Assembly: GCF_964355755.1 (NCBI RefSeq)
Contig: NC_092673.1
Span: forward strand, 25,737,001 to 25,801,000
DNA from: Antedon mediterranea
Lineage: Eukaryota > Echinodermata > Crinoidea > Comatulida > Antedonidae
Length of the DNA: 64,000 bases
Direction of reading: 5' to 3'
Positions 2,586 to 60,376 of the stretch are shown here, piece by piece. Within the stretch, counting starts at the first letter, position 1. Each line of letters opens with the position of its first letter. The position numbers and the translations under genes were made by a program. The notes beneath the pieces were generated by a model, which saw nothing but the letters and a program-made list of their open reading frames with translations, did not search any database and was not told the origin of the DNA.

Positions 2586-5500
2586 TTAAACGTCACCCAT
2601 GCTAAAAACCGATTGAGCTTCCTTTAGGTACTCGTTATATTTCCCCAAAATTTCGAATTTTGCTTTCTTGAAATCGATTTGGCCCGCACCACCTGTCGTA
2701 TGTGCCAATGGTGTGACTATCAATGGCTAATAAAAAAACAAAAGGTTTTTATCAATGGTTATTCACTCATAATGGTTGTTCACTTTGACAAAAAAATTGG
2801 ATCAAAAAACAATTTATTTACCTGCAAAACTGTAATTTATGACAAAAGTAGTCAAACGGTCTGTCAGACGATGTGTTTTTGTTGAATTTAACTGTTTATT
2901 TTGTCATTTTATAAGTGAAAACATTATTTTTGGTAGTGATTAACTTTATTGAAACTACAAAATGGCATATTCAAAGTCTGATTTTATTCATCTTCAATGT
3001 TCATGCTTTTTGGGGATAATACATCATTCTTTAAGCAAACATTGATTGAAAACAAAGGAAAAACAACTGAAAATAGATAATAGGCCTATATTTAAAGATG
3101 TATTGTCCCTTGAAACACAAAAAATGAAGGTCAAAATATTTTTAATTTAAATTGGCCATATCAAAATATTAACGTTATTAAATTTAAGTCGAAAATTCAA
3201 GGCAAAAAAAATAAGTTTACGTAATTAACAGGTAAATTAATTTGATTACATTTCGTCTGAAAAATCGTCGTTGTTAAACAAAAAACGTCTGTATTTCATT
3301 TTTTTCGACTCATTTTTGGTGAATGTTAATAACTATTATGATACTTCAAAATGACCCACTTTTTTTAAAAATCTTTTATCTTTTTTGGAATTAGTTAAAA
3401 GAACAATACACCTTTAAAAGAAATTAATTTCAATTTAAGAAAGATCCCTTGAAACCGTACAATGCTACTTAGACATAATACCTTGGCAGGTAATTGGTTG
3501 CATGCATTTACTGACCGTGTGAGATGTTTTGTGTTAGTAATTAAATTTTTTAAGCGTGGGTTCCTACTACAAGCAAAGATTGTATAACAATCTTTACTAC
3601 TAGGACATAGCGTAAGTAGTTTGATCAATCACAAACAACATTTCGAATGACACGCCACCTGTGATTGGTTCAACTTACAGAGTGCAAAACTTACATTAGT
3701 CTGAAGCTTATCAATAATAATTTTTGTATCATCAATGATGTCTTGAAAATCTTGGCCGTGGTGGACAGTCGGATTGTCTTTTAAGACTTTGTAGAGTTCC
3801 AGTTCTATTGTCTTAAGTTGCTTCATGCAGCGATTGTAAAGTTCCAAGTTATTCATGACAGCTTCTAGTAAATATCGTTTTTCTCTATCCTGTTAATGAA
3901 ATAAATAAGCACATACAATAAAAAAAAAAGGTAAAAAGAAAAACAATGATTGGAGATGATAATGGGTGCTCGCATAGGAAAGGTATAGATGATGTTATAA
4001 TGATATTGTTTGTGCTTTATCTTGTGCCTCTAAAATGTGTTTTAAAAATAAGAAAATTAAAATTGTGTCTTAAAACAAGTTGTTGAATGTTATTCTTGGC
4101 AAAATAGCCCTGTATTATGCTTGATTTCTTGATGCCTCTAAGGCATATGATATATGATGAGTAAATCACTGGACTCTTTAAAAAAAATTTTATTAAACAG
4201 AAAGATGCCAACCGCAATTGTACAAATGTTATCGTGTTGGGGAAGATCCATCCCCCGATGGTTCTATGTAAGAAGCGGAGTGCGACAGGGCGGAATTATG
4301 TCTCCATTACTGTATAATGTTTTCATGATCTGAATGGAGCACTTAGTAGATGTGGTTACGGGTGTAGAACTTAAAATAATGTCCTAAATAATTGAAGTTA
4401 TGCTGATGACATGACTATGATGTTGTATATAACGCAAAAACATATGTCTGTATGGTTATTTCTCCAAAGAAGAAACATGGTGAAGTGGTATCAAATATTA
4501 TGCTAAATAATGATATATTATCTTACGTCAATAAAGTGACTTACCTAGAACATATTTTACGTAATAATTTAGATGATTCTAATGACATTATTCGCCAGTA
4601 TCGAGCTCTTTACATTCGAGGTAACACTCGTAGTAGACGCTTTAGTAGATGTAATGAGAATGTTAAGTGTAATTTATTCAGGTCGTTTTTTACTAATCTG
4701 TACTGTTGTATGTTATGGTCTAACCACATTGTAAAAACGATAAAATCGCTGGAGGTGTGCTACAGCAACTCATTGAGAATGTTGCTAGGCTTACCTAAGC
4801 ACTGACGTAGTGCTAGTAACATGTTTGTCACGAGGAGAATTCCCCTTTTCTACGAGCATGTACGCAAGTGCGTCTATGGTTTTAGATTAAGAGTTGTGAA
4901 TAGTGAAAATGATCTGGTTAGGTGTACTACGAACTATATTGTTACGATATTAAAATCTCTACGCTAAGTGGGAAAAAATCCTATTTTATTTTGATTTTCC
5001 GTTTTGTATTATTTTTTGTTGTAGACCCACAGTATATATGGAATATTTATTCTGAAATAAAGTGATCAAATCAAAAATTTATAATTAATAAATACCAGAT
5101 CGATTGGTAGTCTAGTTGAAATTTCATTCTCTTGGGCATTGCCAATTGTCCCACCATTGTTAACCTGAAATAAAAATATAAAACTTAATGTCAAAAAATA
5201 ACTAAACTATAATAATAACTAAAATAAATCCATATTATACATTATTTTATAATATAATATCTAAACAATTTAAATGACGAAACACGAATATTTAAATGGT
5301 TTCATAAAAGAGTGGGAATAATATGGGCTTTCTGTTATTACACTTATTATAATGTTATCGATATTACACAAACAGTGTCATTTTTTTAGCATCTTTCAGT
5401 TAGTAAAATGTTTTTCCTAAATCGCAACCATTCTGTCAAAAGCTCTACACTCTAACAATATATTTTAATTTAAGAGGTTTGGTTTTTTTTTTCTATTTAC

Positions 5501-8481
5501 TGTAATGCCTAACATTTTCGCGGCCATACATTTTCGCGATTTTACATTTTAAACTATTTCGCGACCTTTTATTTTTGCGATTTGAATTTCTTGTGTAATT
5601 TTTCTAATTAAATTGGCGAATGTATTTCACCTCCGCGATGAAAGTCAAATAACAATTGAATAGCATGAGAAACATTACACACGTAGAATAACATAACGTA
5701 ATAATAACTTTATGGACACACTACAACTGTTTATATGATTTAATGGACAAAGGATTCGTAAAGCAAGTACACTATACATATGATTTCATCAAAATTTACC
5801 GAAGAAATGTCTAACGCCCGTATTCTTAAACCGGCCTTTAGTCGTAGTTCGAGCTAAAACTTTAAATATGACGTCATTTTAAGTCATAAACCGAACTTCA
5901 ACTAAATCGCTGACTAAATCAGGCCAACTTCGAGTAAATCGAAACGGATTTTGATCGATTTTTTAAGTCCTGGAGGGGGCAGGCTAAATCGCCGACTAAA
6001 TGGTTTTTAAACGAGGTTTATAAAAATGTAACAGTTATTGAGTTGTTATATTGGCCATATATTGAAGAATAAATCAACGCGTATGAAACTCGACTTCATT
6101 AAGACTGTATAAGGGCGCACGAACATGTTATAAGGCTTTACAGTAATCTATTGGTTTTTTCCACTCTGGATTCACCACCCATTTCGCCAGAAAAACTCAA
6201 ACCAATTCCAGTTCTGTGTGGGACTCATTAACCTCATACACAACACACTTGGTGCCTTGCTATAATAATAATATACTTACATATTTGTTTTTCAGTGTTT
6301 CGACCTTTGCACGCAGAGTTTCTATTGTTGCATCGTTCTGATGATAATGTAAGTATAAAACATAAAAATATTAATAGCGATATAAACAACATATTTTGTA
6401 ATAATTTAAAATAATATAATGATCAACTGATGCTATCTAGCGGCTTACCGCCCAATGCACGGGCGCCATCTAATCAGTGAATGAATTTTTAGTTTTACGA
6501 CCTAAATGTGATGTACAGAATATGACAAATAGTTACCAATCGCCTGTCGCAAAGAAATTCTAAAAACCCAATCGAATGGATAAAAGGGAATTACGGTTGT
6601 AGTTTCGGTCATGCGGTATTTATATAGGGATAGTTTGATAGGATTAGTGCTATTACGTAGTGTTAATTCATTGTGCGCATGCGGAGATTATTAGGACGTG
6701 TGTCCCCGCTCGACCCACCTCGATACATAACAGGTTTGATGGTTTCTATTTCAAGGCGACGACCGACGACACATCAATTGACCTGATCTAGGTTGGTTGT
6801 CAATCGTCGCGAATCGAAACCTCCCTATTAACTATATATAAATTTACGTAAGGGCAAAATTTGGTAAATCGCGCCTTACTTCTAGAATTTTTACTCGATG
6901 GTATATAAAGTTGGTTCGTACTTTCGGTACTGATTTTAACCACCTGATGTAACCATGTTTACTAATTAAATTAAGTTAGATAATTAGTTATTGACGATTA
7001 AAACGAATTTAGGTTCAACGATTTGCCCCAAATAGGGGTGTTTTCCGATCGTGGTATACACTGTCTAATGGATGTCCATCTTGAAAAATACCCGCCACAA
7101 AAATGCGAGGAGGCTTCGCATTTTCCTATCTCCTCCTACGATAATTGTTTTTAACAGCATCATAATGTTGAAGACAGGCCGATTTTTTTTTTTAAATACT
7201 ATTTTGATAGATTTAATATACGATTATACAAATGTATTGATTTTCGATGAATGGAACATCCCAATCTCTCAGTCGGCCAGAGTTTGGTTTAACACAAGTA
7301 GGTAAATTTATGAGCCCTTGGTTTAACACCTACGGTAGGTAAATATATGGGCCCTTTGAGAATAAACTTGCAATACTTTGACAATACTGTAAATACCTAT
7401 TAACTATTTTTGGTCCTCATTTGAATCGAACATTTCTTACTGTGAATGTTCGTACTGTTAGATGTAATATAAAAATATATACAAATAAACTTTATTACTG
7501 AGATTGTGGTTAGGCTCTACTGTTAGATATATAAACACATATACAAATAAACTTTATACTGACAGTTCCTTCTCAACGTTTGTATCAATTAATAATTACC
7601 AATAATACAAACGTCGTAGTGGTGTATCGTGACATGTACTTTAATATTTCAATCGATTATGACAGTGACAGTTTTAACAAAGTATTAAATCGCAAATGTT
7701 TTACTGTATTTAGAGGTATATTATTTATAGGCCTATAAAACATGAACAAAATATTTCGTTACTGAGTGGATAAAGAATATATTTAAAAATTGTTCCTCTT
7801 TGTACCTATCCGCTTTCCCATCCCTCAACCCTAATGTTACATACAAAACACAAATTGGGTTTCTTTAAATGAGTTCAAATCAAAAATGTGGACTCATTTT
7901 TTGATAAGTTTCTCCTTCGGAAGTAATTCCCAGGGTGCTAATTTTAGTTGACTACATAAATCATCGTGTCTATTTATTCGTTTCTGTAAACGACAATGTA
8001 TTGTAGTCCTGCGGTACGTACATTTGAAATCGCCAGTTTTGTTACGCTGAAATTACTGTGTATTCGAGAACCATCTGTGGGCACGACCTAGATGGTACGC
8101 GAGCTGCAGTGACATTAAAACAAAACGTAAACATCACATACAGGATTGATGCCACGAAAACATACCCAACGTAGCGCTCAAATAGACACCTATGAAACAG
8201 AGGAAACGACTTGGAAGAAACTCGTTTTAACAAACCTGAAGAAAGACTAATTTATCGAGGTAAAACACGACATGTGACGAAGGCGAAGTCTAAGATGGAC
8301 AAAAATTCAGGTATTTTGTATTCGTAAAACTCCAAAATTCAGGGATTTTGTATTTGTAAAACTCCAACAGAGTGCTATATTGATGAAAATTGACAATAAC
8401 AAATGTAGATAAGAAAATGTAAAAACAACTTACATTGTCATTAGATGCCACCGATTGAGATGATTCCCCTTCACTCGACAT
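2586..8481 (-). CDS. Gene A: divergent, apparently leaderless member of the small helical protein family
   Basis: Function unknown. Exons in coding order: 8481-8434 (16 codons, ATG start), 6337-6281 (19), 5164-5096 (23), 3889-3695 (65), 2726-2586 (46 plus TAA). All junctions are phase 0 with GT-AG signals, giving about 169 residues. Exon 6337-6281 ends in KNKY before the donor, matching the Tyr that ends exon 3 in every paralogue. The 65-codon exon carries a charged amphipathic block (NNLELYNRCMKQLKTIELEL) and then a second helix-like block; the last exon contains FEILGKYNEYLKEAQSVF, like the last helix of the others. The first exon (MSSEGESSQSVASNDN) is polar and not a signal peptide; a TATA-like box lies about 105 bp upstream. 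Either this paralogue lacks a leader, or another first exon was missed. Internal exons are firm, the 5' end is not. Confidence 0.65.
4195..5070 (+). pseudogene. Non-LTR retrotransposon (LINE) fragment, reverse transcriptase
   Basis: A broken reverse transcriptase reading with the sense strand, antisense to gene A, inside the intron between gene A exons 5096-5164 and 3695-3889. Visible motifs are GVRQGGIMSPLLYN at about 4279-4320 and the catalytic YADDM at about 4399-4413, with stops between them. The largest open piece (4452-4805) includes FSRCNENVKCNLFRSFF and ends SLRMLLGLPKH, typical of jockey/CR1-like LINEs after the catalytic core. An AT-rich 3' tail runs to about 5070. The 5' end and the endonuclease are missing, and in-frame stops show it is dead. 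Confidence 0.85.
5490..6040. repeat. Gene A intron: probable MITE-like repeats
   Basis: In the intron between gene A exons 5096-5164 and 6281-6337. The segment 5500-5650 repeats the word TTTTCGCG at least three times; 5820-6030 repeats CGACTAAAT and AAACCG(G/A). Both look like degenerate short transposon sequence. No exon of the gene family was found here. Confidence 0.35.
6845..7300. repeat. Dispersed repeat beginning TTTACGTAAGGGCAAAATT
   Basis: Shares long blocks with 51776-52238, including TCTAGAATTTTTACTCGATG, the GGTGGTTAAAATCAGTACCGA block (here in opposite orientation) and CCTACGATAATTGTTTTTAA. The order of the blocks differs between the two copies, so one is rearranged. It lies in the long intron of gene A. 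Confidence 0.6.
8042..8233 (-). other. Hydrophobic open segment in the gene A first intron, role unclear
   Basis: The frame contains a 20-residue hydrophobic run (YVGYVFVASILYVMFTFCFN) followed by VTAARVPSR, resembling a signal peptide with a cleavage site. A good acceptor (TCTTTCTTCAG) precedes it in a phase that would fit a phase-1 first exon, and a weak donor (ACA/GTAATT) ends it in phase 0. I found no matching first exon, and it cannot follow the exon at 8434-8481 in frame. It could be an alternative leader exon of gene A or chance. Confidence 0.25.
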
Positions 8482-11614: not shown

Positions 11615-13956
11615 TTAAATATACACCTCAAAGTCTGTTACAGCTCTTTGGAGATACATTTCATATTTCTTCAAAAATATAAGAGTTTCGCAATCCAAAG
11701 TCAATTTTTCTGATGACATGTTATAATCGCATGAGTTGCTTGTCAGCGATGTTCCCGTCAAGTTGTTCTCTTGTAACTACAAAACAACAATATTATCATA
11801 AATCAATATTATTATGTTAGGATTTGAAATATTATAGTTATTATAATAAGCAGACTGTTGTTCTACATTTTAATTATTGGCCAATCAAATTCTTTTAAAA
11901 ATGTTAAGGTTATATTACTATGTAAATTATTTATATACATTCTTATAAATATCTTATTTCACTAATGTGTAAAATGAGACGTAACACATATTTAAAAATT
12001 CAACCAATTGCAAGCACACAAAGAAAGGATAGTGTGTGTTAAGCTATAGATGTCTACTAGACTTAAACTAGTTTGATAAAAAAAGTGTGATGTGCCCAAA
12101 TATGGTAGTGATATGACATCATCATGTCCATATATGGGCACATCACATTTTGTTGTCACATAAAGTTTGATAGTGTAGATACATAAATACAGGTGTAGTT
12201 CATTTTTAGTCGCCTGGACGCGACTCTATAGTTCACTATGTCGGTCAGTCTGTCGGTCTGTCGGACTGTCGGTCGGTCCGGTATCACTATGCGTTTTAGC
12301 ACGCGACTTATGGCTGTTGGCCTTGTTTACTTACTATATTGTTTATCTTGCTAATAACACTATCTGTAGATGTAAGAATGCTCTGAAATTCGTCGACGTA
12401 GTCAATAGGATAATTTTGGTGTAGAGTTGCCTCAGCAGATGTAATTTCTGTCATGAATTCCTTGTAAACTGTTATGTCATTCATGTAAGTTGCTAGCATA
12501 TCTCCCTCCTGCCAAATGATATTAAATATACAATTTACTGGCCTAAAATTTACTGCTTCTTTCAGAAAAGTATTACTTAGATTTAAAACAATAAACAGTT
12601 TGCAAAAAAAAATCAAAAACTAGAAAATTGCTGATTAAATTGTATAAACTTGACTAAAAATGAAAATTCACCATAGAAATATTATACATTTAGTTTATGT
12701 CAATTAATTATCATTAATATCATACAGTATTAAGTAAATTTCCTGCCCATGAATATGATGCTTCATCAATGAAGGTTAGGTTAAATGTTGGTTCATATAC
12801 TGCTAACGATATCGAACGACGAACTACTAAAAAATCGAAAACGTTTTCATCTTGGAATTATATAGGATAACCATTTATGCTGTCTTTGATAAAAATATTT
12901 TTTTCAAAATTCCAATCAAATGACTAGACTATTAAGAGCAATAGTATTGTGACGATACATCGATTATGTTGTTCTTATTGATCATGACGTCATTTGATTA
13001 GATTGTAAACAATATTATTATCAGACAACATAAATGTTATTCTATAATTCTAAAATGTAAAAACTTTGTTATCGTCCTTAGGTTATGGTCTATACCACAT
13101 AATTGATGTTTTCTATGATCTGAACCAAAGTAATCTTCTTAAATTGCCTTGACTAGACACATTAGTTAGAATCGGCCACAGCGTATCACCAAATAGTAAC
13201 TAAATTCGTTTTACAACTTACTGTTATAGAAAGGGTATTGAATACGCTTGGTGGCTGAAGTTCCTCTTCCAGATTAATGTTAGAAGAATCAAATCTACAA
13301 TCGAATTATGAAACTCATTATAAAAACATTGAACAGTATAAGAGAAAAGAAAAACAAATCTCGGCCCACTGAACATCCCCAATAACTGAATATCACGCTG
13401 TTTTAATTTTTCTTGACTACAGTAGACACATTACTTAGAATCGGCTAAAAAAACTTACTGTTATATTATTGCAATTATAAAGTCCCAGAATAATGTCAGG
13501 AGAATTAAATCGGTCCACTATCTACAATCAAAATATGACAATCATTACAAAAATATTGAACTTTTAAAGTTTAAAAAAAATCTCCGGTCCACTAAACATC
13601 CCCGATAACTGAACATCACGCTGTTATCTATTTCCATTAAACTGTATGTTTTAGAGAATATCAAAACCAAAAGAACAGGAAAATGGGATGCTTTTCCCTC
13701 ACCGTCCCATGACTCCGGGAGCAGAAGTTGCACTTTAATAATCTGGAAAATTAGGCTTTAAAATCACAAAGACAGGAAATAAAATGATATAGAATGAATT
13801 TGTAGTCGCGGTTCTATATTTAAAATATATGTTTGTATTTATTTGTTTATAATATATTTGCTTTAGCTTATTTTATTTGATACTTACATAACTGTTAAGA
13901 ATATTTTCTTCAAGTGTTATTAATTCGGCCGTTGCTCTTACAAGCACACCGTATTT
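11615..13956 (-). CDS. Gene B: family member with no visible signal exon; exon 4 duplicated
   Basis: Exons in coding order: 13956-13888 (23 codons, ends ILNSY), 13521-13459 (21, starts IVDRF), an extra exon-4-like block 13294-13222, 12508-12335 (58), 11776-11615 (53 plus TAA). Apart from the extra block, junctions are phase 0 with good GT-AG sites. The 58-codon exon shows VYKEFMTEITSAEATL and YVDEFQSILTSTDSVISKI; the last exon has MSSEKLTLDCETLIFLKKY. The extra block is 73 bp with an early TGA in the expected frame, so including it breaks the protein. No signal-peptide exons were found upstream: sequence homologous to the intron between exons 2 and 3 of its paralogues appears at 14680-14770 and passes into 5' flank by 14830, suggesting loss of exons 1 and 2. 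It is probably a pseudogene or uses a distant leader. Confidence 0.65.
12043..12182. mobile_element. MITE, CTATCAAAC family, copy 2
   Basis: Contains AAACTAGTTTGATAAAAAAA, the core GGTAGTGATATGACATCATC and the right end CATAAAGTTTGATAGTGTAG. It lies in the last intron of gene B. Confidence 0.75.
12205..12330. repeat. Third copy of the CTGT-core dispersed repeat
   Basis: Flanks GCGACTCTATAGTTCACTAT and GGTCCGGTATCACTATGCG with a short CTGTCGGT core, followed by GCACGCGACTTATGGCTGTT. It abuts the 3' end of gene B exon 12335-12508, so the intron begins within a few bases of the repeat. Confidence 0.7.
13120..13640 (-). repeat. Tandem duplication containing gene B exon 4
   Basis: Two units of roughly 230-250 bp, each with an exon-4 copy followed upstream by related intron sequence (compare AAACATTGAACAGTATAAGA near 13325 with AAATATTGAACTTTTAAAG near 13551, and GAACATCCCCAATAACTGAA with AAACATCCCCGATAACTGAA). 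The 13459-13521 copy is open and in phase. The 13222-13294 copy appears to lack 11 bp just after the acceptor and is out of frame. Confidence 0.75.
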
Positions 13957-17097: not shown

Positions 17098-19680
17098 CTA
17101 ATCTTCAATTAATGGATTTTGAAAATCTGTTACAGCGACTATAAGGTTTCTGTCGTATTCTTCCAATACCGTTACCGTTTCTTTGTACAATTTAAGCTGC
17201 TCTGTTGATATATTATAATTGACTGATGATATTTCCGTTGGAGTTTCTTCTCCTAACTCGTTTAACTAAAAAAAAATTATTATTATTATCGTTAACGTGT
17301 ATCAACACAATTATATTAGTATATAAAAGTTCATCATTGTTGCTAGTTTTCTAATCTGAGTTTCCAGTTTCTAATTGCAGACAAAAGTCTATCAACTTCC
17401 AAGAACTCAACACATAGACTTGTGTTTACCATATCACTTTTAGATTATAGTAAAGTCTACATTTTTTAAATAATTGATAGTAGATTGGAATTCTGTTTCC
17501 TATTAAATTATCGACCAATCAACTTCTGTCTTTAAAAAATGTTTTCGTTTGTATTATTATAGTGTCATTAAATATTACATGTTAATTTGTATGATGTTAT
17601 TAATAAAGATCAAAGACGTTTGTTATAATTATTAATACGAAATTTAACCAATTTGGGCAAGATTAAGAAAAGATGGAATTACTCTCCCATTCCGGTCTTT
17701 TTTAATGTATTACGTTTATTGAGTTTTATGTTAGTTTACTGTTAATATATGATTTTAAGTATTATACAATAAAGTTATAGTTCTGTTCTGTACTTACTTT
17801 TGTCTTTATCATTGTTAAAACATAATTTGTAGATGTAATAATGCTCTGAAATTCGTCGACGTAGTTAGTAGGATAATCTGTGTATGCAGTGACTTCAGCA
17901 GATATAATTCGTATGATGAATTCCTTGTAACCTTCCAAAGTATCCAGGTGCATAGTAAGTATAGCCTACAAAATAGTAATGAATATGCTTGTAAATCCAC
18001 TGACCTTAACTTCTACTAAGACTATTAATTGTGTAGGCCTACAACAAGCTTAAACAGTAGTAAATCAAAAGTTTATCAGACAAATATTTATTATAATGGA
18101 AGAGGTTACATAATTATTACATTATTATTATATTATTACATAATCGTCCAATGAAATGTAATAACCCATGTGTCCAACTAACACCACGGTAAAAAGAAAC
18201 CATCTGACCATGAATTAGTAATGGCTACAATTCGAGAGTAGAACCTAAATAATGCAGTATTTTCTACTTATAAGAGCAATATAATAATGTTCCTTTTTTT
18301 TCGTGATCCATGCTCACGAGACTTTTCAGAATAAAGTATTTATCCAAACAATTATCGTCTCTTTGTGTTTCTCTCTTTGTTTTAACACATGAGCAAGCCT
18401 AACTGAAAAATAAAATTATTTTTACCTGATTTGTGTTAGCAATTGCTGATTGTGGTAGTTCGGATCTTATGGATGCGCTTTCCGAGTCTTTATCAAATCG
18501 GCTTATTTTCTACAATCAAAATATGAAATATTATTTATAGTTATATTAAATATAACTGAATATTAAATAAGTATTCCCCTCTTATGAATTGTCATTAAAC
18601 TGTTAGATAATGATTGCAAATGTAAATTGTACAGGATTATACTAATATTAAAAAATAATTATTAATTATAATAATATGGAGAGAATAGAGCATGTAGGAA
18701 TATGTTCACTGTATTTCTCAAACTTGTGTCAGGAATTTGGCACTACAACTTTACCGATTCTCAATGCTGTATATACGACAATATTCGAATTTAAGTAACA
18801 TAGGAATTCGGTAATAAGCATCTCATGTGTATCACATGTAGGGTCTGTATCATGTAAGGTTACAAATACTTACATAATTATTAAGAGTGTTAAGCGTAAG
18901 TTCTTTTAATTCTGCTGCTGCCGTTGCAAGTTCGGACCATGTCTGTACAAAACAAAATGTTCAATATTATTGGGGGTAAAATAATATACTATTTTGATAA
19001 GTTATACCTTATTCATGGGCCAGTTGAAAAATAGCCTCAATTAAAAACCCTTTTCCGACCTAAAAGACAGCGTACGGTACGCAAGGTACCGTAATAATAA
19101 ATTAAACCTGGAGTACTTACAGGTACGTTTCTTCGTGTTGGTTTTGCTGATGTACATAGTACAAACACAGTCACTAAATAAATAGAGAAATGGAATGATT
19201 ATAATTTAAATATAAATTTTTGAATAAGATTTGATTGTGATAGAATATTAAAAGATAACTGGTTTATTTTTCCATTTTATGTAAAGTTGAAAGTTAATCT
19301 AATAATTATTGGCCTTCTTTTAAAATATTAACACACGTTATACACATTTTGGGGCCCAAAAAAGTATGAAAAAAAAAATAACGAAAGATATGGTTATAAC
19401 TATGAAACATTTATAAGTTGTACAATATACGTAGGCCAAAATAGTCTAGGTTCTAGACGGAGTTCTGACTTAATTTTTGTAAAAACCTTAATATTTTTGG
19501 CCCACATGGCGTTTCATACGTATACTATTTTATAGCTCGTAGTTAAAAACAAAAATAAATACAGACTTGGACAAGTCTATAAGGCCAATATTAATTATAT
19601 ATGAATAAGTAAAACTTAAAATATTATTTAGAAAACTTACTAATCAAACAGCAGATAGTAGCTACTTTTGTGGCCTTCAT
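17098..19680 (-). CDS. Gene C: small secreted helical protein (putative cytokine-like)
   Basis: Exons in coding order: 19680-19641 (13 codons plus 1 base), 19173-19121 (2 bases plus 17 codons), 18942-18874 (23), 18509-18426 (28), 17965-17798 (56), 17265-17098 (55 plus TAG). All have GT-AG borders; the phases are 1-0-0-0-0. The product is 193 residues. The signal peptide joins exons 1 and 2 (MKATKVATICCLIM, then TVFVLCTSA), with likely cleavage after TSA. The mature part is about 170 residues and has no Cys. Helix-like segments: WSELATAAAELKELTLNTL; LEGYKEFIIRIISAEVT; VDEFQSIITSTNYVLTMI; TEQLKLYKETVTVLEEY. One N-glycosylation site (NIS) is in the last exon. A TATA-like box lies about 95 bp upstream of the ATG, and ATTAAA lies about 80 bp after the stop. 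The family is unknown to me. A four-helix bundle is inferred from pattern and intron phases; another secreted helical fold is possible. Confidence 0.85.
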
Positions 19681-22950: not shown

Positions 22951-24050
22951 GGCATAAGTAACAAATATGATAGGATAAAAATCATTCGTATACTTCCGTT
23001 TTATTTTATTTTGCAATTAAATTAATATATATTTATTACACAATTATTATATATAGCATATAACAAGGTTAAATAGTTAAAAACAAGAAAATAGGCACGT
23101 AATATAATATACTTCATCAATGTTCTGTAGCACACGTAATTATAAATTATCCATGACTTTTACTATCATTTACAATAAATAAAGTAAACTTATTTTGTGT
23201 TTAATTAATTTAATTTAAAATTTAAATTATCTTTATTAATCCTTTTGAAAATTCATTGACCTATATATATATAAATATTAAATTAAATGTACAAAAACAT
23301 CATAAATAAAATATATACATATCTATTTCAATACTTCTTAAAATAATATAGGACTATGTGACTTTTTAGTGTCATCCTGTATAAATATATTAAATAGTTA
23401 TATACATAAATAAATATTCGTAAAATTTATAAAACGATGGAGACACCTGTAATATATTATATTTTCTAAAGGCATTGTAACCTATTACACAATTATTATA
23501 AAAGCAAGTAAAATCGAGAAATCTTAGCATTATTGGAGCACTTATGAAAGACAAAACATTACATTCAGCAAAATAATTCAACCAATCACTCTTGAAGCAT
23601 CTTCTATAATCTATATCATTACATAGTTTTATCATTCACTGAATATCATATAAAAATATGTAATTAATAGTAAATTATTGCTTCTTTCTGATTGGTTTAA
23701 AGCTAACACGCTATAATTTAATAAAGATAAAGTTATATTTGTATCCATTTTTATTTCATTTTATATTGAAATTGAACTATTTAAAAAACTTTTAGAACTT
23801 ATTGCAATCTGCTCTGGAAAACTGTAATATAGCTAATCTTCAATTAATGGATTTTGAAAATCTGTTACAGCGACTATGAGGTTTCGATCATATCCTTCCA
23901 ACACCATAAGCGTTTCTTTGTATAAAGTAAGTTGTTCTGTTGATATAGTACAATTGACTGGTATTTTCGTCGAAGTTTCTTCTACTAGCTAAAAAAAAAC
24001 AATAATTAGTATCTTTAACGTGTATCAACAATATTATATTAGTATAAAGT

Positions 24051-24133
24051 TCAGTCTACACTATCAAACTATTTTGACATATCACATATTTTGTCGCATA
24101 ACATTTGAAGTATAGACAGAGCTTAAAAGTACA
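24051..24133. mobile_element. MITE, CTATCAAAC family, short copy in gene D
   Basis: CAGTCTACACTATCAAACTA at the left and TATAGACAGAGCTT at the right, with most of the core deleted. It is in the last intron of gene D and has a matching copy in gene E at 38285-38359, so it predates the D/E duplication. Confidence 0.65.
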
Positions 24134-24261
24134 TCTAGTGTTCTTTGTTTTGTTAAACGTACTGTACCTCTAATATGAGTTGCCAGTTCAGACGAAAGTC
24201 TATCAACCAAGAACTCAACTCCATATTACTTACAGATTACTAATATAGTGTAGCTTATATA

Positions 24262-25524: not shown

Positions 25525-25548
25525 ACACACACACACACACACACACAT
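25525..25548. repeat. CA microsatellite in gene D intron 4
   Basis: About 12 CA units next to gene D exon 4. The gene E counterpart near 39771 is short and interrupted (CACACACACCCATACACA), so its length changed after duplication. Confidence 0.85.
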
Positions 25549-27371: not shown

Positions 27372-27399
27372 GACTAGATTGGTTTTTCGATAGATACTT

Positions 27400-31105: not shown

Positions 31106-31133
31106 GACTAGATTGGTTTTTCGATAGATACTT

Positions 31134-38067: not shown

Positions 38068-41000
38068 CTAATCTTCAATTAATGGATTTTGAAAATCTGT
38101 TACAGCGACTATGAGGTTTCGATCATATCCTTCCAACACCATAAGCGTTTCTTTGTATAAAGTAAGTTGTTCTGTTGATATAGTACAATTGACTGGTATT
38201 TCCATCGAAGTTTCTTCTACTAGCTAAAAAAAAACAATAATTAGTATCGTTAACGTGTATCAACAATATTATATTAGTATAAAGTTCAGTCTACACTATC
38301 AAACTATTTTGACATATCACATATTTTTTCGCATAACATTTGAAGTTTAGACAGAGCTTAAAAGTACATCTAGTGTTCTTTGTTTTGTTAAACGTACTGT
38401 ACATCTAATATGAGTTGCCAGTTCAGACGAAAGTCTATCAACCAAGAACTCAACTCCATATTACTTACAGATTACTAATATAGTGTAGCTTATATAAGCC
38501 GGTGAGGTTAGGTGAGTCCCGTGTTATCTGAACGTAGGGGAATGAGCTGTTGGCTCATTGTACTAAGCCTCGGCATTATGTGGTAGGGTGGCCAGTTCCG
38601 TGTCGCCTTTTTTCTCCCTAGTATTTTTCAACAAGGTACTTATTTTACAGCTGAGTGGACTGGGAGTTGTCGGGAATTGAACCCGGGTCTATCTGTCAAG
38701 TGTTCTAACCCCTCGGCTATCCAACGTCCCGTATGAGCCGGTATGATTGTGTAAATAATTGGTACTAAATCAGCAGATTGGAATTCTGTTTCCTATTAAA
38801 TTACCTTCCAATCAAATTCTGTCTCTTCAAAATTGTTTTCGATTGTATTTCTTACTTTCTTAATATTATTAACTATTATGTAATACGAGTTCATAAAGAT
38901 TACAGACGTTTGTTATAATATTATTAATAACAATAGGCTAATAATAATAATAATACAAATAATACAAATTTAACAATTTAATGAATTCAAGCAAGATTAA
39001 GAAAAGATGGAATTATTTTTCCATTCTGTTTAAATATAATATGTTTATTAAGTTTTGTGTTAGATTATATTTCATTGTTCACAGGTTATTTTTGAGTTCC
39101 GTACTTACTTTATTCTTTATCTTGCTAATAACTTCATCTGTAGATGTAATAATTTTCTGAAATGCGTTAACGTAGTCAGTAGGATAATCTTTGTATACAG
39201 TAGCTTCAGCAGATTTAATTCGTAAGATGTATTCCTTATAACCTTCCAAGGTGTGCATGTGCATAGCAAGTATATCCTACAAAATAGTAATAAATATGCA
39301 TGTAAATTCACTGACCTTACTTTTTCTACATTAAGAATATTAATTAAGATGTAGGTTTACAACAATGCTTAAAAAGTAAATTTCAGAAAAAACGGAACAA
39401 ATTACATAAAGTTGCAAAGTATAAAGCACATCAGACCATGGAGTAATCATAATGGAAGAGGCAACATAGTTATTATGTGACGAATCATCAAATGAAATGT
39501 TTAATAACCTATGTGTCCAAACATTTCCCCTGTAGGACTGCATTTCACGGTGCAAAAAACCATACTGACCGTTTACATGACCATGGGTACAATTCGAGAT
39601 TAGCGCCTAAATAAAGTAGCATCCTAGTACAGTATTTTATATTCATCATCACTTATAAGGGATATAATATTAATAGTAATAGGTATAATTATGTTCTTTT
39701 TGTCGTAATCCGTGCTCACGAGACTTTTCAGAATAAAGTATTTATCCAAACCATCAGCGTCTCTGTTTTACACACACACCCATACACATAGCAAGCCTAA
39801 CTGCAAAGTAGTAATTATTTTTACCTGATCTGTGTAATTTATATTAAATGCTGATTGTGGTAATCCACCACTAAATACGTCTTCCGTTAAGCCTACTTTA
39901 TCAAATCGGCTTGTTTTCTACAATCAAAATATGAAACTCATTGCTACAAATTATGTATCACTGTAATAGTAAATAAGTACGATATTCCCCTCTTATGACT
40001 TGTCATTTGTTAGATAATGACTGGTAAATTGTACAGGAATATTCCAATTAATAATCAATTATAATAATATGAAGAGAATAGGAATTTGGCACTGTCTCAG
40101 TGCCGTATATCTTCACATAAATATTTTGTATCATAGGAAGATTCGGTAATACAGCATCTCATGTGTTTCATATGTGGGGTGGTCTGTATCATGTAACAAC
40201 ATTACAAATACTTACATAATGATTAAGAGTGTCAAGCGTAAGGTTTTTTAATGCTGCTGTTGCCGTTGCAAGTTCAGACCATGTCTGTACAAAACAAATG
40301 TTCAATAGTTATAGGAAATGAAATAATAATTATACTGTTTTAATAATAGATATCTATTATCTAGGTGACTTGGAAAGTCAAAACTATCCTTTTTTTGTAC
40401 GTACGTACCATGCGAGAGAAAATAAACAGGACCTGTAGTTTCTCGTCATTGGGTATTTTTTAAATACGTTATGTCAACGCTTTTGTTCTTGGCTGAATAA
40501 TGGTGTTTTAGATTCCCAATCATAAAGGCATGTTTGAACTCCTTAATTTTTTTTCAGTATTAGGCTATACATGGAAAACGTTATTCTATGTTTAGGATTC
40601 GGTTGCTATGGCTTACCGTCACGTGACGTGAAACAGTCACACGGTTTATTGTCTCTAGACATAGTACAGTTGAAAAATCGCCTGAATTAACATCCTTTTC
40701 CGACCTCAAAAACAGCGTACGGACCCCCGATTATCATCCTAGCAAGGTACCGTAATAATAAATAAAACCTGGAGTACTTACAACTTGCTGTAGGCCTACG
40801 CCCACGTTTCTTCGTGTTGGATTTGCTGATGTACACTGTACAAAAACAGTCACTAAATTGATAGAGAAATAGAATAATTATAATTTAATTATAAACTTTT
40901 GAATGAGACTTGATTGTGAATAGAATATTAAAAGATAACTGGTTTAGTTGTTTCAATTTTAAGTCAAGTTAAAAGTTAATCTAAAAACTATGGGCCTTCT

Positions 41001-41378
41001 TTAAAAATATTATTACACAATTGTTTATACACATTTTGGGGCCCAAAATATTACAAAATAAAAATAACGAAACATTGATAAGTTGTACAATATACATAGG
41101 CCAAAATAGTCTAGGTTCTAGACGAAGTTCTTAATTTTGTAAAAACATTAATATTTTTGGCACACATGGCGTTTAATACGTATACTACTTCATAGCTCGT
41201 AGTTAAAGACAAAATTGAAACGCCGACTGCTGGTGGACTAACATAAAAAAAAAACTACAGACTTAGGGCAAGTGTATAAGGCCAATATTAATTATATAAT
41301 AAGTAAAACTTAAAATGTTGTTTGTTTAAACTTACTGTAAATCAAACAGCAGATAGTAGCTATTTTTGTTGCCTTCAT
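38068..41378 (-). CDS. Gene E: intact recent paralogue of gene D
   Basis: Exons in coding order: 41378-41336 (14 codons plus 1 base), 40852-40782 (2 bases plus 23 codons), 40284-40216 (23), 39917-39825 (31), 39276-39109 (56), 38223-38068 (51 plus TAG). Phases are 1-0-0-0-0 and all borders GT-AG; the product is 199 residues. The signal peptide is MKATKIATICCLIYM then TVFVQCTSA. Helix-like blocks: TWSELATATAALKNLTLDTL; LEGYKEYILRIKSAEATVY; YVNAFQKIITSTDEVISKI; TEQLTLYKETLMVLEGYDRN. N-glycosylation sites: NLT, NYT, NCT. Exon 2 is seven codons longer than in D because of a 21-bp insertion beside the donor that contains TAGGCCTA. A TATA box lies about 95 bp upstream and AATAAA about 80 bp past the stop. 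It is probably the functional sister of the broken gene D. Confidence 0.87.
38285..38359. mobile_element. MITE, CTATCAAAC family, short copy in gene E
   Basis: Counterpart of 24051-24133 with the same internal deletion, in the last intron of gene E. Confidence 0.65.
38497..38742 (-). mobile_element. tRNA-derived SINE, subtype 2, in gene E last intron
   Basis: Same insertion as 24262-24515, flanked by AGCCGGT. It is slightly shorter because of a deletion in the anticodon region. Shared position with gene D confirms descent by duplication. Confidence 0.75.
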
Positions 41379-46144: not shown

Positions 46145-49109
46145 CTAGATAGGTGCTGGATGTTCATGTCCGTACTTCATTTCCTCGAAATCGTATTCTG
46201 CTATTCTAAGATATTCATCGTATTCTTCCAAAATCTTGAGCGTTTCTACGTTTAGCATCACTTTTACAAGTTCCGCTGTAAAGTCATCACACGAGTTACT
46301 GGTCAGCGAATTTCCATTGAATTTTTCTTCCGTTGTCTAAAAACAATATTTATTATTTATTGATTTCAAAAAAATAATATGGTTGGACACAATATTGTGT
46401 TAAGGTTTAGGCTTATGGCCTATGATACTGGCATCACATGCTAAAACATTGCTAAAATGATTTCTTATTCTGGTACCTATAATGGACCGATGTTTGTGTT
46501 GAGTTTCTCTAATATAACGTTTAGTAGGCAATGCGTGGTATATAATTGGAGGCATTTTTAAAGCACTTACTAGTTCCGTTATCTTGGCAATAACATGTTC
46601 AGTAAACACAATAATTTCTTGAAATTTGTCAACATAGTTTTTAGGATCTTCCTTGTATAAGAGGTCTTCAGCAACTTTAATTTGGCTGATGAATTCCTTG
46701 TAAACTTCTAAGTTATCCATGTGAGTTGCAAGCAGGTCTTCCTCCTACAAAATAGTAATAAATATACAGACACATTTACTGAGCCATACTTTCTTTTAAA
46801 TTCCGTTCCCGCTTGGATGCTACGCAATGACGTTAAGCGCATCGTCCCTCAGTTCGGACACCCCTTTAAGGGGACACTTTCCAGTAGAATGAAAGATGTA
46901 TGTATATTTAAACATGGCCAACGCATTGGGAAAGAAAGGGGGGGGGGGGGCATCGTGATAATAAATTCGTTTTTACCGTAGCTTCAAGTCGTAGTTGTAG
47001 TGTCAGTTGGCTTGGTAGTCCAGGTATGATTATGTTGTTGGCTGTTGCGTCGGGATCCCCAAATCGGTCTACTCTCTATAATCAAAATATAAAACGCTTT
47101 GTTAAAGAATATCCTTAAATAGTAAAGGAATTTTCCTTTTTCATAAAAATTGTCATTCAATTTAGATCGTAGTGTGACAGCTGCATAACCTCTACCCAAC
47201 TCCCTATACCCACCCCTCTCCAACTCCCTAACCTCTCCCCGACTCCTTAACCCTTCCCTAACTACCTAACCCCTCCCCGACTCCTTAACCCCTCCCTAAC
47301 TACCTAACCCCTCCCTAACTACTTAACCCCACCCTAACTACTTAACCCCACCCTAACTACCTAACCCCTCCCTAACTACCTAACCCCACCCTAACTACCT
47401 AACACATCTGATGTTGCACGCATTACTTACATAACTGTCAAGGGTGCCTTTCTCAATCTTATTCAAGGTCACTGTTTCTTCAACCAGCTTATCGTGTTGT
47501 TGTATAACGATGTCATGTTGCGGCATCGATGTTGGAACGGGCGTTGCTGACGTAACGTGTAAAACACACAAGGCTAAATGAAAAAAATTATAATTATAAA
47601 TTCGTTATAGTTGCAGATAAATAATACAATTTAAAATGAAAGGGAAATTATTTCAATATTACATGGTTTCGTCGGTGTTAATTTTAATTAAGCCTACACT
47701 ATATGATCGTAGCGGTTGGTATAGCGACTAACTCGTGAAATCGGTCAGTCAAGTATAATTTGTGGAAGTTAACTACAGGAGCCCTCGAAAGAACACATAC
47801 TGTACTGAAGATAGGTTTAACACTCAATTTCACAATTCTAATTTCCTATTTTAAAATTCCGACCTTGTGTCGATGCCTAGTCTCCCTTATTGATTTGGGT
47901 GCTTTAACATAATGAATAATAATAAAAGCGCATCTGAGATTTAATTTACTGATGGTAAGTACTGTAATGGAAATTGTCTGAATATCCCGCTACTAAATTG
48001 CCGCTGCGCCTCTTTACCCACTGGAAATGGATTCATGCATTAAATCCTAGCCTAAGCCCTTTTGTAGCCCTGGTCGATATACAGGTAAGCATTTTTCAGA
48101 CGGCCTGTCTGTATTAGGGTATGCAAAATTTTAGTTTAAAAAAATTAGGTTCGTTCGTTATTTTTATGAATTTATTTATGTGAATAAATAGTATACTCAT
48201 TGTTTATCTATAAAACAAATGTTGAAACATTTGTAAATTTTAGCCTCATTATATAATCTACTATTGTAAAACTGATGAGTTATATCATTTCAACTGACGA
48301 AGTGTATGAATATTGTTAGACTATGATTATTATAATTATGATTATTATGATTATTTTTTATATCTATTAATGCATAATACAGTATTCTATTGCCCTTGAT
48401 AAATACATTAACGATATCGTATCAATTGATTATGTAATGTTTTGATGTGGTAGGCTAAGTTTATACGAAATATCGTGGAGCTTTTGGTTGGTGGTTAAGG
48501 TCCCGGGGGTAATCCTCTATTTACCTCTAGCCCTCAGCCTCAAGTGAGACTTAACTTTCCTTAAGCTGGACAGTGAGTTAAATTAATAATAGTAATAAAT
48601 ATATTATATGTTATGTTAAACTTTAAAAAAAAGAGAAGAAATACATTAAAAGATGATATGTATAAATTATAAGAGACAATATTGTAAGGAATGATAATGA
48701 ATAGAGAAAAGATTACAACAAAAATCATGTATGTAAAAACACGATAACATTACAATGTTAGAACAGTTGTGTATAAATTAATATACAGTATTTATATGAA
48801 AATGTATATGATGAAAATAAAAAAATATATTTTAGTTTTATATCCATCATAATCGGCGCGGTTATTTCTGTTGGATGATGCGTATCAAATAAAATAATAA
48901 GTTTATGATGAGACCTTCGATAAAAACGGGCGAGAAATTTGGCATGTAAAATTATATGAAAAAAAAATAGCCAGGCTCAGATTAAATAGGAGATCAATAT
49001 CTATAACTACAGATTTTGCTCATGTGCAAATAAAATAAAGCTTATGTCTGTAAAATTATATTGGAAACTTACCGATCAAAAAACTGTAAACCATTTTTCT
49101 CTCATCCAT
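46145..49109 (-). CDS. Gene F: small secreted helical protein, five-exon form
   Basis: Exons in coding order: 49109-49073 (12 codons plus 1 base), 47573-47431 (2 bases plus 47 codons), 47075-46977 (33), 46744-46571 (58), 46336-46145 (63 plus TAG). Phases are 1-0-0-0, all borders GT-AG; the product is 214 residues. The signal peptide is MDERKMVYSFLIA then LCVLHVTSA. The second exon corresponds to exons 2 and 3 of C/D/E fused, and still ends in Tyr (TLDSY). Helix-like segments: VEETVTLNKIEKGTLDSY; LEVYKEFISQIKVAEDLLY; YVDKFQEIIVFTEHVIAKI; LKILEEYDEYLRIAEYDFEE. The linker exon starts RVDRF as in B. A clear TATA box lies 110 bp upstream. Its 1-0-0-0 phase pattern is the one I associate with long-chain helical cytokine genes. 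The function is unknown. Confidence 0.87.
46939..46950. repeat. Poly-G run in gene F intron
   Basis: A run of about 12 G residues in the intron between exons 4 and 5, 27 bp from exon 46977-47075. It would read as poly-C upstream of the next acceptor on the transcript. Confidence 0.8.
47195..47401. repeat. CCCTAACTACCTAAC minisatellite in gene F intron
   Basis: About 12-14 units of 15-17 bp such as CCCTCCCTAACTACCTAAC and CCCACCCTAACTACTTAAC. It contains the word CCCTAA at nearly every unit, reminiscent of degenerate telomeric repeat, but the units are longer than six bases. It lies in the intron between exons 47431-47573 and 46977-47075. Confidence 0.75.
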
Positions 49110-53540: not shown

Positions 53541-53552
53541 TTTAACCCTACA

Positions 53553-56508: not shown

Positions 56509-59500
56509 TTACCCTTGTGATGTTGTTGTAGGCATATAGAGTGCAGTTACGTGGAAATCAACGTCAATGACATAGTGTGTTGTAGTCAATAGAAGTTCCA
56601 TTGCATAATCATTTAGATCGGCCTTTCTGGTCTTGTTAGTATAATCAACTGTCGTAGCGTTTCTTATTAATACTGCGTTTTGATTTCTATGTTTTATCTG
56701 CAAGAAAAAAGTTATGTTATTACATTTATTTAATGTTAAGTAGCTGTGCTGTTACTAAATGCATATTTTGTGAATTATGTAATTTGTGTAAATCACTCAC
56801 GCGCGCCCAAACATGATTAACAAAAATATGGGTTTAATCAGGTAGCTGATGTGTTTGTGTTTTTAAGTGTTAATTGACCAAATAGAACTAGTAAATAGTT
56901 CCATGTCCGGTTTTTGACATATTTGCGAGTGAGAGTAATAACTATTATGAAGCGAGGGAAAAAAATCAGTAATATTCGATTTGTTTATTTAAAACAGGGA
57001 TGAGTGACACTTCCCTGTTTAGATTTTTAAAAAGACCGAAAATGTGGAAAATGCTGTTTTGATAGAGGTGGAATGAATCGCATAGAAGCGTGACGGAGCT
57101 ATGTATGTAGGCCTACTGGTGTAACAAGAAAATAAGTAAGTAGGTCTAAAACGACAATTTAACAATCAAATTGTACTTACAATATTTGACATTTTATCAC
57201 TGATGGTCGTCATCAAATCAGATACTTCCTGAAATTCATTGCTGAAGTTTCTTAGAGATTGGCTATATAATCGGGCTTCGTTCACCTTTACTTCTTGAAA
57301 GACAGTGCGGTATATACCGAGATCAGTTACGTATGTTAATAACAAGTCCACTTCCTGACGATTAAAAAAATATAGTAAATCAAACTGAACGGAATATATT
57401 TCATCAGTGTGGCATATGTTTATTAAGCACGTAATAGAGTAAGATTGTTCATCGTAATAATCAACCTTACAAGGTAAGAGGGACTAACATAAGAAAAATG
57501 CCTACAAAATGATCTAATCTTTGTTACACCTGCTGGTTTCTACGAAATTCATTGACGGTGAATATAAGGACTGAATTCAGTATATGATATAATACGACGA
57601 ACTATAAAGGGTCTATAGTTCGGTATTGTACTAATGTGTGAATTGTTCCATGGTTAAATACTACAGAGAACAGTCATTGTTGATCGACGTAAAGCGTTAA
57701 TCAAGTGGAAACTATTCTTTGTGAATTCCTATAGTGCCATATGAATTACATGTTATATAGTATTATAACGATTGTTATGGATCACCGGTGTCCGGATAAA
57801 AATCCCGCAGGCAGGATCCAGGACATCCGGTCCCGTCCCTTTATGTCTATCCTGTTGTCAGCCATAGTAGGACTGAAGCTCTGTCTACACCTCTGTCTAA
57901 ACTATCAAACTAGTTTGACAAAAATGTGTGATGTGCCGAAATATGGTAGTGATATGACATCATCATGTCATTTGTTGTCACATAAAGTTTGATATGTACG
58001 TAGACAAGGAACAAGCAAATTATGTGAATAAAGCTCTGTCTACACTATCAAACAAAAAGTTTGATGTACCCATATATGGTAGTGCTATGCTTAAATATGG
58101 TAGTGATATGACATCATCATGTCCATATATGGGCACATCACATTTTTTTGACACATAAAGTTTGATAGTGTAGACAGAGCTTTATGGATAGTATTATTTC
58201 AGTACTAATACTAACCCTTGCATTACGGGCGTCTTCAAACGCAAGATGAGGTACAGTAATGTTAATGTCGTTGGTGTTGAAGTGTCGTCTACGGAAACGT
58301 GTCCGATTCTGTAAAAAAAAACAAGCTAATAAGTAAAAAATATTACACTGAATAACATTAAAAGCATCATATCAGATACAATACTAATTTTAAAAAATAC
58401 ACCATGCTAGACATACACCTGAGTTTGTTTATAATATTTAAAAAATAGTGTGTACTAATTATTAAAACAATTTTCAGAATAAAAGTCCTTATATCATATT
58501 AAAATGAAAGTGATAGTAGGCCTAAGTTAAGTAAACACGTTAGTTATTTTTATTGTAAGAATATTATACAACAAACAGAACAATAGTATGAATAGGAAAA
58601 ACATCCTAAAGAACATTTACGTCATTAGTTACCGTAATCGTTTTGATTGTAGAAGAATTCTAATAATGCGTCGGTAGGCCTATAGTTTATCAATCGTTGT
58701 CTTTTTAGGAGTATGATAATAAGGATAAGAATGATGATGGTAACCATGAATGATGAGATGATGATGGGATGTTGTTGGTGATGTTACTGGTGATGTTACT
58801 GGTGAGTGGGAGGGTGATAAGATAGTAACATTGAGAATTAAATGTTAGAGATTGAGATGAGGATGGTAATATTGATGCGGATTTTGTTGATGAGTTTAAA
58901 TCATAATGATAATGATATTGATGGTGATAGTGGTGTTACTGGTGACGAGGAGGATAATAAGATGGTTACATTGCGAATGTTAAAGATAGAGATGGGGATG
59001 ATAATGTTATTGAGATAGAACATTCACTAACTGTGAATTGATTATAATTGTGGAAAATCACTTACGTATTCGTTAACAAATGCACTGCAAGACCTCTGTA
59101 ATTCCGTGATTTTCTCAATAAGAGATGTGTGATGTATTGTCCCTGCTAATGACACAGACGTTTTGAAGCAGACCAGTATAAACAATGATCCTGAAAGATC
59201 AACGTAAAATGATTATTATCTTTTTTAATTTCAATTCACACTCGGAGAGCCCATCACTTACTAATTGGAATACATAGCAATACGAGACAACATGACAAGA
59301 GCAAAACACAATGTGAACTTTGTTGTAATAATTTGTTTGTAACTTTCAGCTATGGGTTACCCTCATGGTATCGTGTTTGAGTATCGATTAAAGCAAACAA
59401 ATAAACCAACTTAAAATATTTCTTAATTTTGGATTTATTTAAAGATAAACTATGACAGAAAATATCAATATAATGCATGAAATATTAATTAAATAATCTC

Positions 59501-60376
59501 GGAAGTCTACAAATAAATTTACTGTACACATCCGTTTGGAGGTATCACTTATGCCTACTTAAATGTTGCTTACTGCACGTATAAACAAAACCTATCACAC
59601 ATGGCGTGCTTATTCACTCTTCCCTGGCTTATTTACCGATAAACATAATGACCGATTTTTCATGTAGTACCGGTATAAAAATAGATAACATGCTACTTTA
59701 TTTAATGTCACAATTTTCTACATTTACTATCATGAAAAGTCGGACAACTGTAATGTTATGGCTAAATTAGTATATTAAATATAAAAAAACTCGTAATAGT
59801 TCACTACATTTGTTTGGCCATGTAATTATTGTTTATTTGCATTATTATTATGTATTATGAAATATTGCTTTAATTTAGAAATAATTACCAATTTATACAG
59901 TTTTTAATTGATTAAAATAAATCATTGCGTGCCACAGAAAGTGTAAATGGGTCATGTTTACAAATGAAATACCCTTATAGGCATATACCATTGCAAATAA
60001 AAAATTCGGATACATCTTAATATTTCGTATCGTTAATTTTCATGAGCTGTGATAGTGAGAGAACAGTTGTAGTAAGGAGACAAGAAACTGCACGTGCTGT
60101 CTATGTATCTAGACATAATACCGTACGGGAATCGGGTATTCGAAAAAGTATACATGCCTCAGTAAAATACATCACGCATGCAACCGAATAGGCGTTGCAG
60201 TAAAATCAACCAAACAATTGTACTGCAGTAAAAATAATACGTTGCTAAGAAGCGTTGCAGTAAAAATACATTATCCAACATCTTGAAAACAACGATAAAA
60301 TTGCCGTCAATTTATCGTATATAATTATCTTAAGTAAATTAAAAAATAACTTACCAAATATATTAATAACCATCAT
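56509..60376 (-). CDS. Gene G: most divergent complete family member
   Basis: Exons in coding order: 60376-60355 (7 codons plus 1 base), 59190-59066 (2 bases plus 41 codons), 58308-58216 (31), 57354-57181 (58), 56697-56509 (62 plus TAA). Phases are 1-0-0-0, GT-AG throughout (one donor is AGG/GTTAGT); the product is 200 residues. The joined N-terminus MMVINIFGSLFILVCFKTSV followed by SLA is a clear signal peptide. Exon 2 is fused as in F and ends VNEY. The linker starts NRTRFRRRH, sharing the Arg-Phe. The 58-codon exon shows YRTVFQEVKVNEARLY and NEFQEVSDLMTTISDKM, aligning with YKEF...Y and DEFQ...T..V in the others; sequence identity is otherwise low. Glycosylation sites: NIT, NAT, NKT. An alternative ATG exon near 59262-59291 was rejected because its donor is out of phase. 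Confidence 0.8.
57874..58005. mobile_element. MITE, CTATCAAAC family, copy in gene G intron (a)
   Basis: CTCTGTCTAAACTATCAAAC at the left and CATAAAGTTTGATATGTACG at the right, with a partly deleted core. It is preceded by an extra CTCTGTCTACAC start. Confidence 0.7.
58029..58183. mobile_element. MITE, CTATCAAAC family, copy in gene G intron (b)
   Basis: Full copy: AAGCTCTGTCTACACTATCA to TTGATAGTGTAGACAGAGCT, a near-perfect palindrome. Together with copy (a) it occupies much of the intron upstream of exon 57181-57354. Confidence 0.85.
58735..59005. repeat. GATG-rich degenerate tandem repeat
   Basis: Purine-rich stretch with repeated GATGATG, GGTGATGTTACTGGTGATG and GATAATGATATTGATGG, in the gene G intron between exons 59066-59190 and 58216-58308. 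Confidence 0.6.

Follow-up and report, generated by a model that had tools for sequence, protein, structure and literature searches.

What kind of protein is encoded by the small repeated genes in a 64,000-nucleotide stretch of the crinoid Antedon mediterranea genome? The stretch (C4:25737001-25801000), here called the window, carries a tandem array of related genes, named A to G, which a first-pass annotation had described as seven copies of an unrecognised family of small secreted helical proteins. We rebuilt the gene models, searched the genome (354.4 Mb, 18 contigs) for relatives, and compared the family with known cytokines. The observation of a seven-copy gene family was confirmed, and its genes are organised like those of long-chain class I helical cytokines. 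We think it probable that they encode secreted signaling proteins of that kind, locally expanded in an ambulacrarian animal.

A seven-copy gene family and its relatives outside the window

All gene models were read from DNA alone (Table 1). Seven copies were rebuilt on the minus strand between position 2586, the end of the gene A stop codon, and position 60376, the first base of the gene G ATG, in agreement with the proposal of one plan repeated seven times on one strand. The four complete open frames of 193 to 214 residues that had been predicted for genes C, E, F, and G were recovered, and their intron phases matched at the junctions as claimed, each internal junction having an AG acceptor and a GT donor. 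The coding sequence of gene F is divided into five exons of 37/143/99/174/192 nucleotides (nt) and that of gene G into five of 22/125/93/174/189 nt, stop codon included, while genes C and E have six, with an extra phase-0 intron directly before helix A. In the six-exon numbering (C and E), exon 5 holds helices B and C and exon 6 holds a loop and helix D; in the five-exon numbering (F, G, and the additional genes H, I, and J described below), the linker is exon 3, helices B and C are on exon 4, and the loop and helix D are on exon 5. A phase-1 intron within the signal peptide, followed by phase-0 introns, was found in C, E, F, G, and H. The first three exons of gene D also fit a phase-1 split leader, and genes A and B do not. 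Rebuilding also confirmed the divided signal peptide, the exon whose last residue is Tyr, the exon of 56 to 65 codons, and the final exon; the linker exon with Arg-Phe was present in B, C, D, E, F, and G and absent from A.

For the leave-one-out test, a profile of six copies was searched against 3,777 frames of the window and its left flank. Exon 5 was recovered in all seven copies with E values from 4e-31 to 4.9e-7 (A, 7.3e-8; G, 4.9e-7). At best, a frame that is not a copy reached an E value of 0.05 to 0.34. Exon 6 was recovered in five of the seven copies (E 1.4e-7 or better); that of A (E 0.28) and that of G (E 18) were not recovered among these frames and were assigned by their position, phase, and reading. 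A profile that includes all seven copies recovers them by construction, and such profiles were not counted as evidence. The exons of C and E differ in length by 3, 18, 0, 9, 0, and 12 nt. Each of these differences is divisible by three, whereas the intron lengths vary freely. We consider the gene family real because of the leave-one-out recovery and these frame-preserving differences. TATA-like sites occur upstream of six of the seven ATGs examined (A, C to F, and H; not G) and were not counted as evidence, since by our estimate this base composition alone would yield nearly one such site every 300 bp.

The models also served to predict a further gene. A weak match to exon 5 (E 0.61), located 44 kb to the left of the window, led to four more exons that fit in size, phase, and motif, and the five exons together make gene H; open exons passing the size, phase, and donor filters numbered 4, 3, and 4 on that strand over 100 kb, those of H included. 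Gene H is complete, lies 41 to 48 kb left of the window, and encodes 206 amino acids (aa) with a leader (exons of 37/134/99/168/183 nt; phases 1-0-0-0). In the genome search, gene E as the query gave 15 matches, all within the window, and gene G gave five, of which two were to itself, two were weak matches in B and F, and one, on C9, was at chance level (E 1.93) and was taken as chance. With gene H as the query, eight matches were found, four to itself and four at 20.41 to 20.43 Mb of C4 (best E 2.8e-6). This second locus, 5.3 Mb away, shows exons 4 and 5 in order, twice, and carries genes I and J in opposite orientations, both partly read. Gene J has exons 2 to 5 (exon 2 with three possible acceptors; exon 3 of 99 nt with Gly-Leu-Pro; exons 4 and 5 of 168 and 180 nt), and gene I has exons 4 and 5 (168/174 nt) together with a 105-nt stretch that is likely exon 3. 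Reading the second locus did not reveal exon 1 of J or exons 1 and 2 of I. The family is thus larger than the seven window copies, H, I, and J being added, and the count, which covers the window, its left flank, and the genome outside the 100 kb right of the window, is a lower bound.

It could be argued that no protein is made from the array and that its members are pseudogene relics in decay or open frames due to chance. Genes B and D are damaged, the models come from DNA only, and the substitutions between C and E are spread evenly over the three codon positions (31, 31, and 34). However, the recovery of exon 5 in all seven copies, the frame-preserving length changes, the prediction of gene H, and the second locus with matching exons all speak against such an origin, as does the divergence between C and E. 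Over the full length, the nonsynonymous divergence (dN) is 0.168 and the synonymous divergence (dS) is 0.283, a ratio of about 0.59. In exon 5, the corresponding proportions of differences, pN and pS, are nearly equal (0.18 and 0.19), and in exon 6, pN is 0.09 versus a pS of 0.34 (dN 0.09 versus dS 0.46). Judged from these comparisons, C and E are changing fast but under constraint, a pattern often seen in immune ligands. We regard relics or chance frames as a very improbable explanation of the array.

Three of the window copies depart from the common plan. Gene A opens with MSSEGESS and has no hydrophobic leader, its best 9-residue Kyte-Doolittle mean being 0.11 versus 2.46 to 3.00 in C to H. 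By analogy with CNTF, which is likewise leaderless, gene A may act without a leader, or it may be a relic. Gene B is without exons 1 and 2 when compared with E; the DNA upstream of B matches the DNA upstream of E to about 14865 and restarts at 14762 as E intron 2. A second, damaged exon-4-like piece was read by eye in gene B at about 13240-13320, beside the linker exon. Gene D is close to E, and its exon 4 is split by an insert of repeats of about 7.5 kb, within which two sub-optimal tRNA-like matches were noted. Genes C, D, and E are parts of a duplicated block whose intergenic DNA also contains relics of an F-type last exon, so that the block appears to have once held a second, now decayed gene. 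The first-pass view of a tandem family of small secreted helical proteins therefore holds for C, E, F, and G, and for H outside the window, while none of A, B, and D is an intact gene for a secreted protein; this departure of A, B, and D, the copies outside the window, and the cytokine-type exon plan had been missed.

Exon plan and cytokine gene architecture

In genes F, G, and H, the exons encode in order a split leader, helix A, a Leu/Val-Pro linker, helices B and C, and a loop with the long helix D. This allocation over five coding exons is seen in full in these three genes and for exons 2 to 5 in J. The helix-A exon also carries the end of the leader, and its last residue is Tyr in A to G and Phe in H and J. 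The linker has 31 to 35 residues with Leu-Pro or Val-Pro in F to J.

AlphaFold2 was run on single exons as contiguous translations. For the exon of helices B and C, it predicted helices at residues 2-32 and 37-57, with a mean predicted local distance difference test score (pLDDT) of 80.8 and a predicted template modeling score (pTM) of 0.51; the mean pLDDT of the five models ranged from 66.2 to 80.8. For the last exon, it predicted a 14-residue loop followed by a helix at residues 15-55 (mean pLDDT 74.7, pTM 0.43, core blocks 91-96). The averaged hydrophobic moments exceeded the per-window 95% null (0.320) for helices B, C, and D. Helix A itself and an up-up-down-down packing of helices A to D are what we infer from these models.

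A split leader with a phase-1 intron, followed by phase-0 introns, is defining of long-chain class I cytokines, and the IL-6, G-CSF, and EPO genes are our reference for the phases 1-0-0-0, the phase-1 intron in the signal peptide, the exon sizes, and the helix allocation. Like the IL-6/G-CSF/CLCF1/CNTF group, the crinoid family comprises helical proteins of about 200 residues with a leader and five coding exons, and helix A, the AB linker, helices B and C, and helix D follow in the same exon order as in the long-chain class I genes. The IL-6 gene is given five exons (PMC5165036), as is the G-CSF gene, whose carp forms have 194 to 225 aa (PMC6389648); the CLCF1 gene itself is given three (PMC8780587), versus five or six here. 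The family also differs from the group in the extra intron before helix A in C and E, in having no detected Pfam or Protein Data Bank (PDB) similarity, and in belonging to another phylum. The gene models, phases, exon order, leaders in C to H, and predicted helices of the B+C and last exons suggest that the family probably works like a long-chain class I cytokine and is a candidate member of that class.

Class II cytokines are likewise secreted helical proteins with several exons, and their genes are often clustered and evolve fast; interferons typically occur in tandem arrays and change quickly. The genes described here could form a class II (interferon/IL-10-type) family with an added 5' intron in the signal peptide. 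IFNL2/3, as described in PMC2654155, have a short phase-1 first exon followed by five phase-0 exons, near the 1-0-0-0-0 plan of C and E, and IL-10 reached a z score of 4.3 (41 columns) in one of the profile comparisons described below (profile H-I-J-F-G-A) and 3.1 with the H+I+J profile. On the other hand, class II genes are described in PMC8863823 as having five coding exons with all intron phases zero, whereas C, E, F, G, and H have a first intron of phase 1. In F, G, and H, this phase-1 intron falls within a five-exon gene, helices B and C stand together, and no intron precedes helix D, a distribution of helices over exons unlike that of class II. Moreover, IFN-beta, IFN-gamma, and IFN-lambda1 scored at or near chance in most profiles. 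A class II family appears to us quite unlikely.

Profile comparisons with known cytokines

Profiles of the family were compared by hhalign in global mode with 26 template proteins: 13 long-chain class I, 2 short-chain, and 4 class II cytokines and 7 helical controls. CLCF1 was the top template for the seven-member profile (score 13.5, z 6.5, 171 columns) and for the nine-member profile (score 16.0, z 7.2, 173 columns), the alignment being full-length and collinear from helix A to helix D. The seven-member score was reached by 0 of 60, 0 of 40, and 1 of 500 shuffles in three runs and by none of 136 E. coli windows (highest 11.2). Among the 26 templates, only CLCF1 combined a z score above 5 with an inspected, in-register, full-length alignment. 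EPO (z 6.3) and TPO (z 5.1) came top for the profile of H with helix A or D aligned to the wrong end and were rejected, as was an out-of-register match to LEP. In local mode, hhalign was not specific, the control ApoA-I reaching a z score of 3.2. A likeness of motifs (a Tyr ending helix A, an x-Phe motif after it, and Leu-x-Val-Leu-x-Glu in helix D) may point in the same direction as the CLCF1 match.

Several results, together with the IL-10 score of 4.3 given above, weigh against a long-chain class I assignment. None of the seven proteins scanned (A, B, C, E, F, G, and H; not I and J) matched a Pfam family above the cut-off, and the best of the PDB sequence comparisons was an integrin domain with an E value of 0.27, so the family is indeed unrecognised by sequence. 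hhalign's own probability for CLCF1 was 0.8 to 3.4%. Leaving out gene H lowered the CLCF1 score from 13.5 to 2.5, while the other leave-outs gave 7.2 to 16.3, and a profile that omitted H and included I and J gave CLCF1 a z score of 1.8, with 2 of 25 shuffles reaching the score. For the H+I+J profile, CLCF1 fell to a z score of -0.5 and GH reached 6.2 over 169 columns, a match whose residue alignment was not inspected. Taken as a group, the long-chain cytokines did not reliably outscore the remaining templates in eight profiles (one-sided p 0.05, 0.075, 0.29, and 0.52, and 0.21, 0.25, 0.34, and 0.71). The hydrophobic moment of helix A (up to 0.31) remained below the per-window null of 0.320, and no helix passed the maximum-based null of 0.493. 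Foldseek with the hairpin of helices B and C returned two weak, non-cytokine matches. Finally, a cytokine-receptor search with PF09240 gave nothing over the cut-off and three sub-threshold matches, the best of which, on C10, has no WSXWS motif and no convincing coding exon and looks like chance. We take the CLCF1 match as a weak lead, not as proof of homology.

The missing sequence match to curated families and the fragility of the cytokine profile evidence would also suit an unrelated, lineage-specific secreted helical family, such as a coelomic effector or a carrier protein, whose cytokine-like gene plan arose by convergence; phase-0 introns, moreover, are common in any gene. However, the split leader, the allocation of helices to exons, the long-short-long loops, and the length of 200 residues together match a single known class of genes, and an in-register full-length match with a z score above 5 was seen to CLCF1 only, the 169-column GH alignment being uninspected. 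Convergence seems to us unlikely.

Possible signaling role and genomic surroundings

If the genes are long-chain class I cytokines, the proteins would be secreted, helices A to D would pack as an up-up-down-down bundle, and the secreted protein would bind a gp130/IL-6R-like receptor. Signaling would then run through JAK and the single STAT locus (two exons) that was found in the genome, probably in immune or regenerating tissue.

PMC13203501 (2026) finds IL-6 only in vertebrates, names Upd in insects, traces IL-6R to Mollusca, and includes IL-6R-like sequences of Saccoglossus and Strongylocentrotus in its receptor tree. Since IL-6R-like receptors are thus known as far as Mollusca, echinoderms and hemichordates included, the ligand would be the missing piece. 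PMC8226699 states that it could locate no invertebrate members of the IL-6 superfamily; it does, however, describe Drosophila Upd3 as IL-6-like. The Upd ligands of Domeless are invertebrate JAK/STAT ligands likened to IL-6 (PMC8226699, PMC13203501), but they are confined to insects in these accounts. Amphioxus has a GH-like hormone and other divergent type-I cytokine genes, none being reported in acorn worms or sea squirts in PMC9010856. This hormone is a type-I helical cytokine of 208 aa from a non-vertebrate deuterostome of another animal group, and it is divergent from the vertebrate forms. Among the papers listed in our literature searches, which left subscription papers and preprints outside their scope, none reported such genes from an echinoderm or a hemichordate.

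We suggest, tentatively and with some doubt, that long-chain class I cytokines of the IL-6/CLCF1 type predate the split of chordates and ambulacrarians, and that the genes described here are the ligands of the echinoderm and hemichordate IL-6R/gp130-like receptors, expanded into an innate immune array. With exact gene models for a candidate ligand family, this question becomes testable. If the suggestion is true, such cytokines would be placed in early deuterostomes, and reading exon plans could reveal cytokines missed by sequence search. An IL-6-type signal in an echinoderm-type animal would be new with respect to the surveys that find no invertebrate IL-6 ligand.

In the left flank, no cytokine-typical neighbour was recognised when synteny was read by eye. 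NOP14-like frames lie about 92 to 95 kb left of the window and C-type lectin-like and kringle-like frames about 56 to 62 kb left of it, all on the plus strand and likewise read by eye. Two tRNA genes and a short interspersed repeat within the window are listed in Table 1.

Elsewhere in the genome, the homeobox matches listed lie on C1 to C11 only and include a compact ordered cluster at C2:7793481-8206232 (7.79-8.21 Mb). Homeodomains are seen in 12 of the 13 pieces fetched; one gene is inverted and three are of the posterior 11/13 type. From their signatures, read by eye, we take the cluster to comprise Hox1-8, 9/10, and 11/13a-c, the ambulacrarian set, so that the genome is likely that of an echinoderm or hemichordate; about 11 large chromosomes would suit a crinoid. 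A search for mitochondrial COX1 gave no match.

Table 1. Coordinates of the gene copies and other features (window positions unless a contig is named)
Feature	Position	Strand	Details
Gene A, leaderless	2586..8481	-	Rebuilt model; exons 8434-8481, 6281-6337, 5096-5164, 3695-3889, 2586-2726; 169 aa
Gene B, truncated	11615..13956	-	Rebuilt model; exons 13888-13956 (helix A), 13459-13521 (linker), 12335-12508 (helices B+C), 11615-11776 (helix D)
Gene C	17098..19680	-	Exons 19641-19680, 19121-19173, 18874-18942, 18426-18509, 17798-17965, 17098-17265; 193 aa; phases 1-0-0-0-0
Gene D, interrupted	23833..34604	-	Exons 34556-34604, 34039-34088, 33471-33539, exon 4 in parts ~33101-33149 and ~25584-25627, 24874-25041, 23833-23988
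Gene E	38068..41378	-	Exons 41336-41378, 40782-40852, 40216-40284, 39825-39917, 39109-39276, 38068-38223; 199 aa; phases 1-0-0-0-0
Gene F	46145..49109	-	Exons 49073-49109, 47431-47573, 46977-47075, 46571-46744, 46145-46336; 214 aa; phases 1-0-0-0
Gene G	56509..60376	-	Exons 60355-60376, 59066-59190, 58216-58308, 57181-57354, 56509-56697; 200 aa; phases 1-0-0-0
Second family locus	C4:20406801-20413500 and C4:20425001-20432000		Two genes, opposite orientation
Damaged exon-4-like piece and linker exon of gene B	13264-13521		Piece at about 13240-13320, read by eye
Insert in gene D exon 4	25628-33100		Two tandem 3,734-bp units, 154-bp tandem repeats, long inverted arms
Relic pieces of F-type last exon	16339-16458, 22791-22913, 37012-37146		Between genes
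tRNA-Asp	20877-20948	+	Anticodon ATC as called; between C and D
tRNA-Glu (TTC)	21241-21312	+	Between C and D
Short interspersed repeat	11135, 12079, 45469, 54086, 57920, 58074		Six copies of 73-109 nt, 68-92% identity to reference copy

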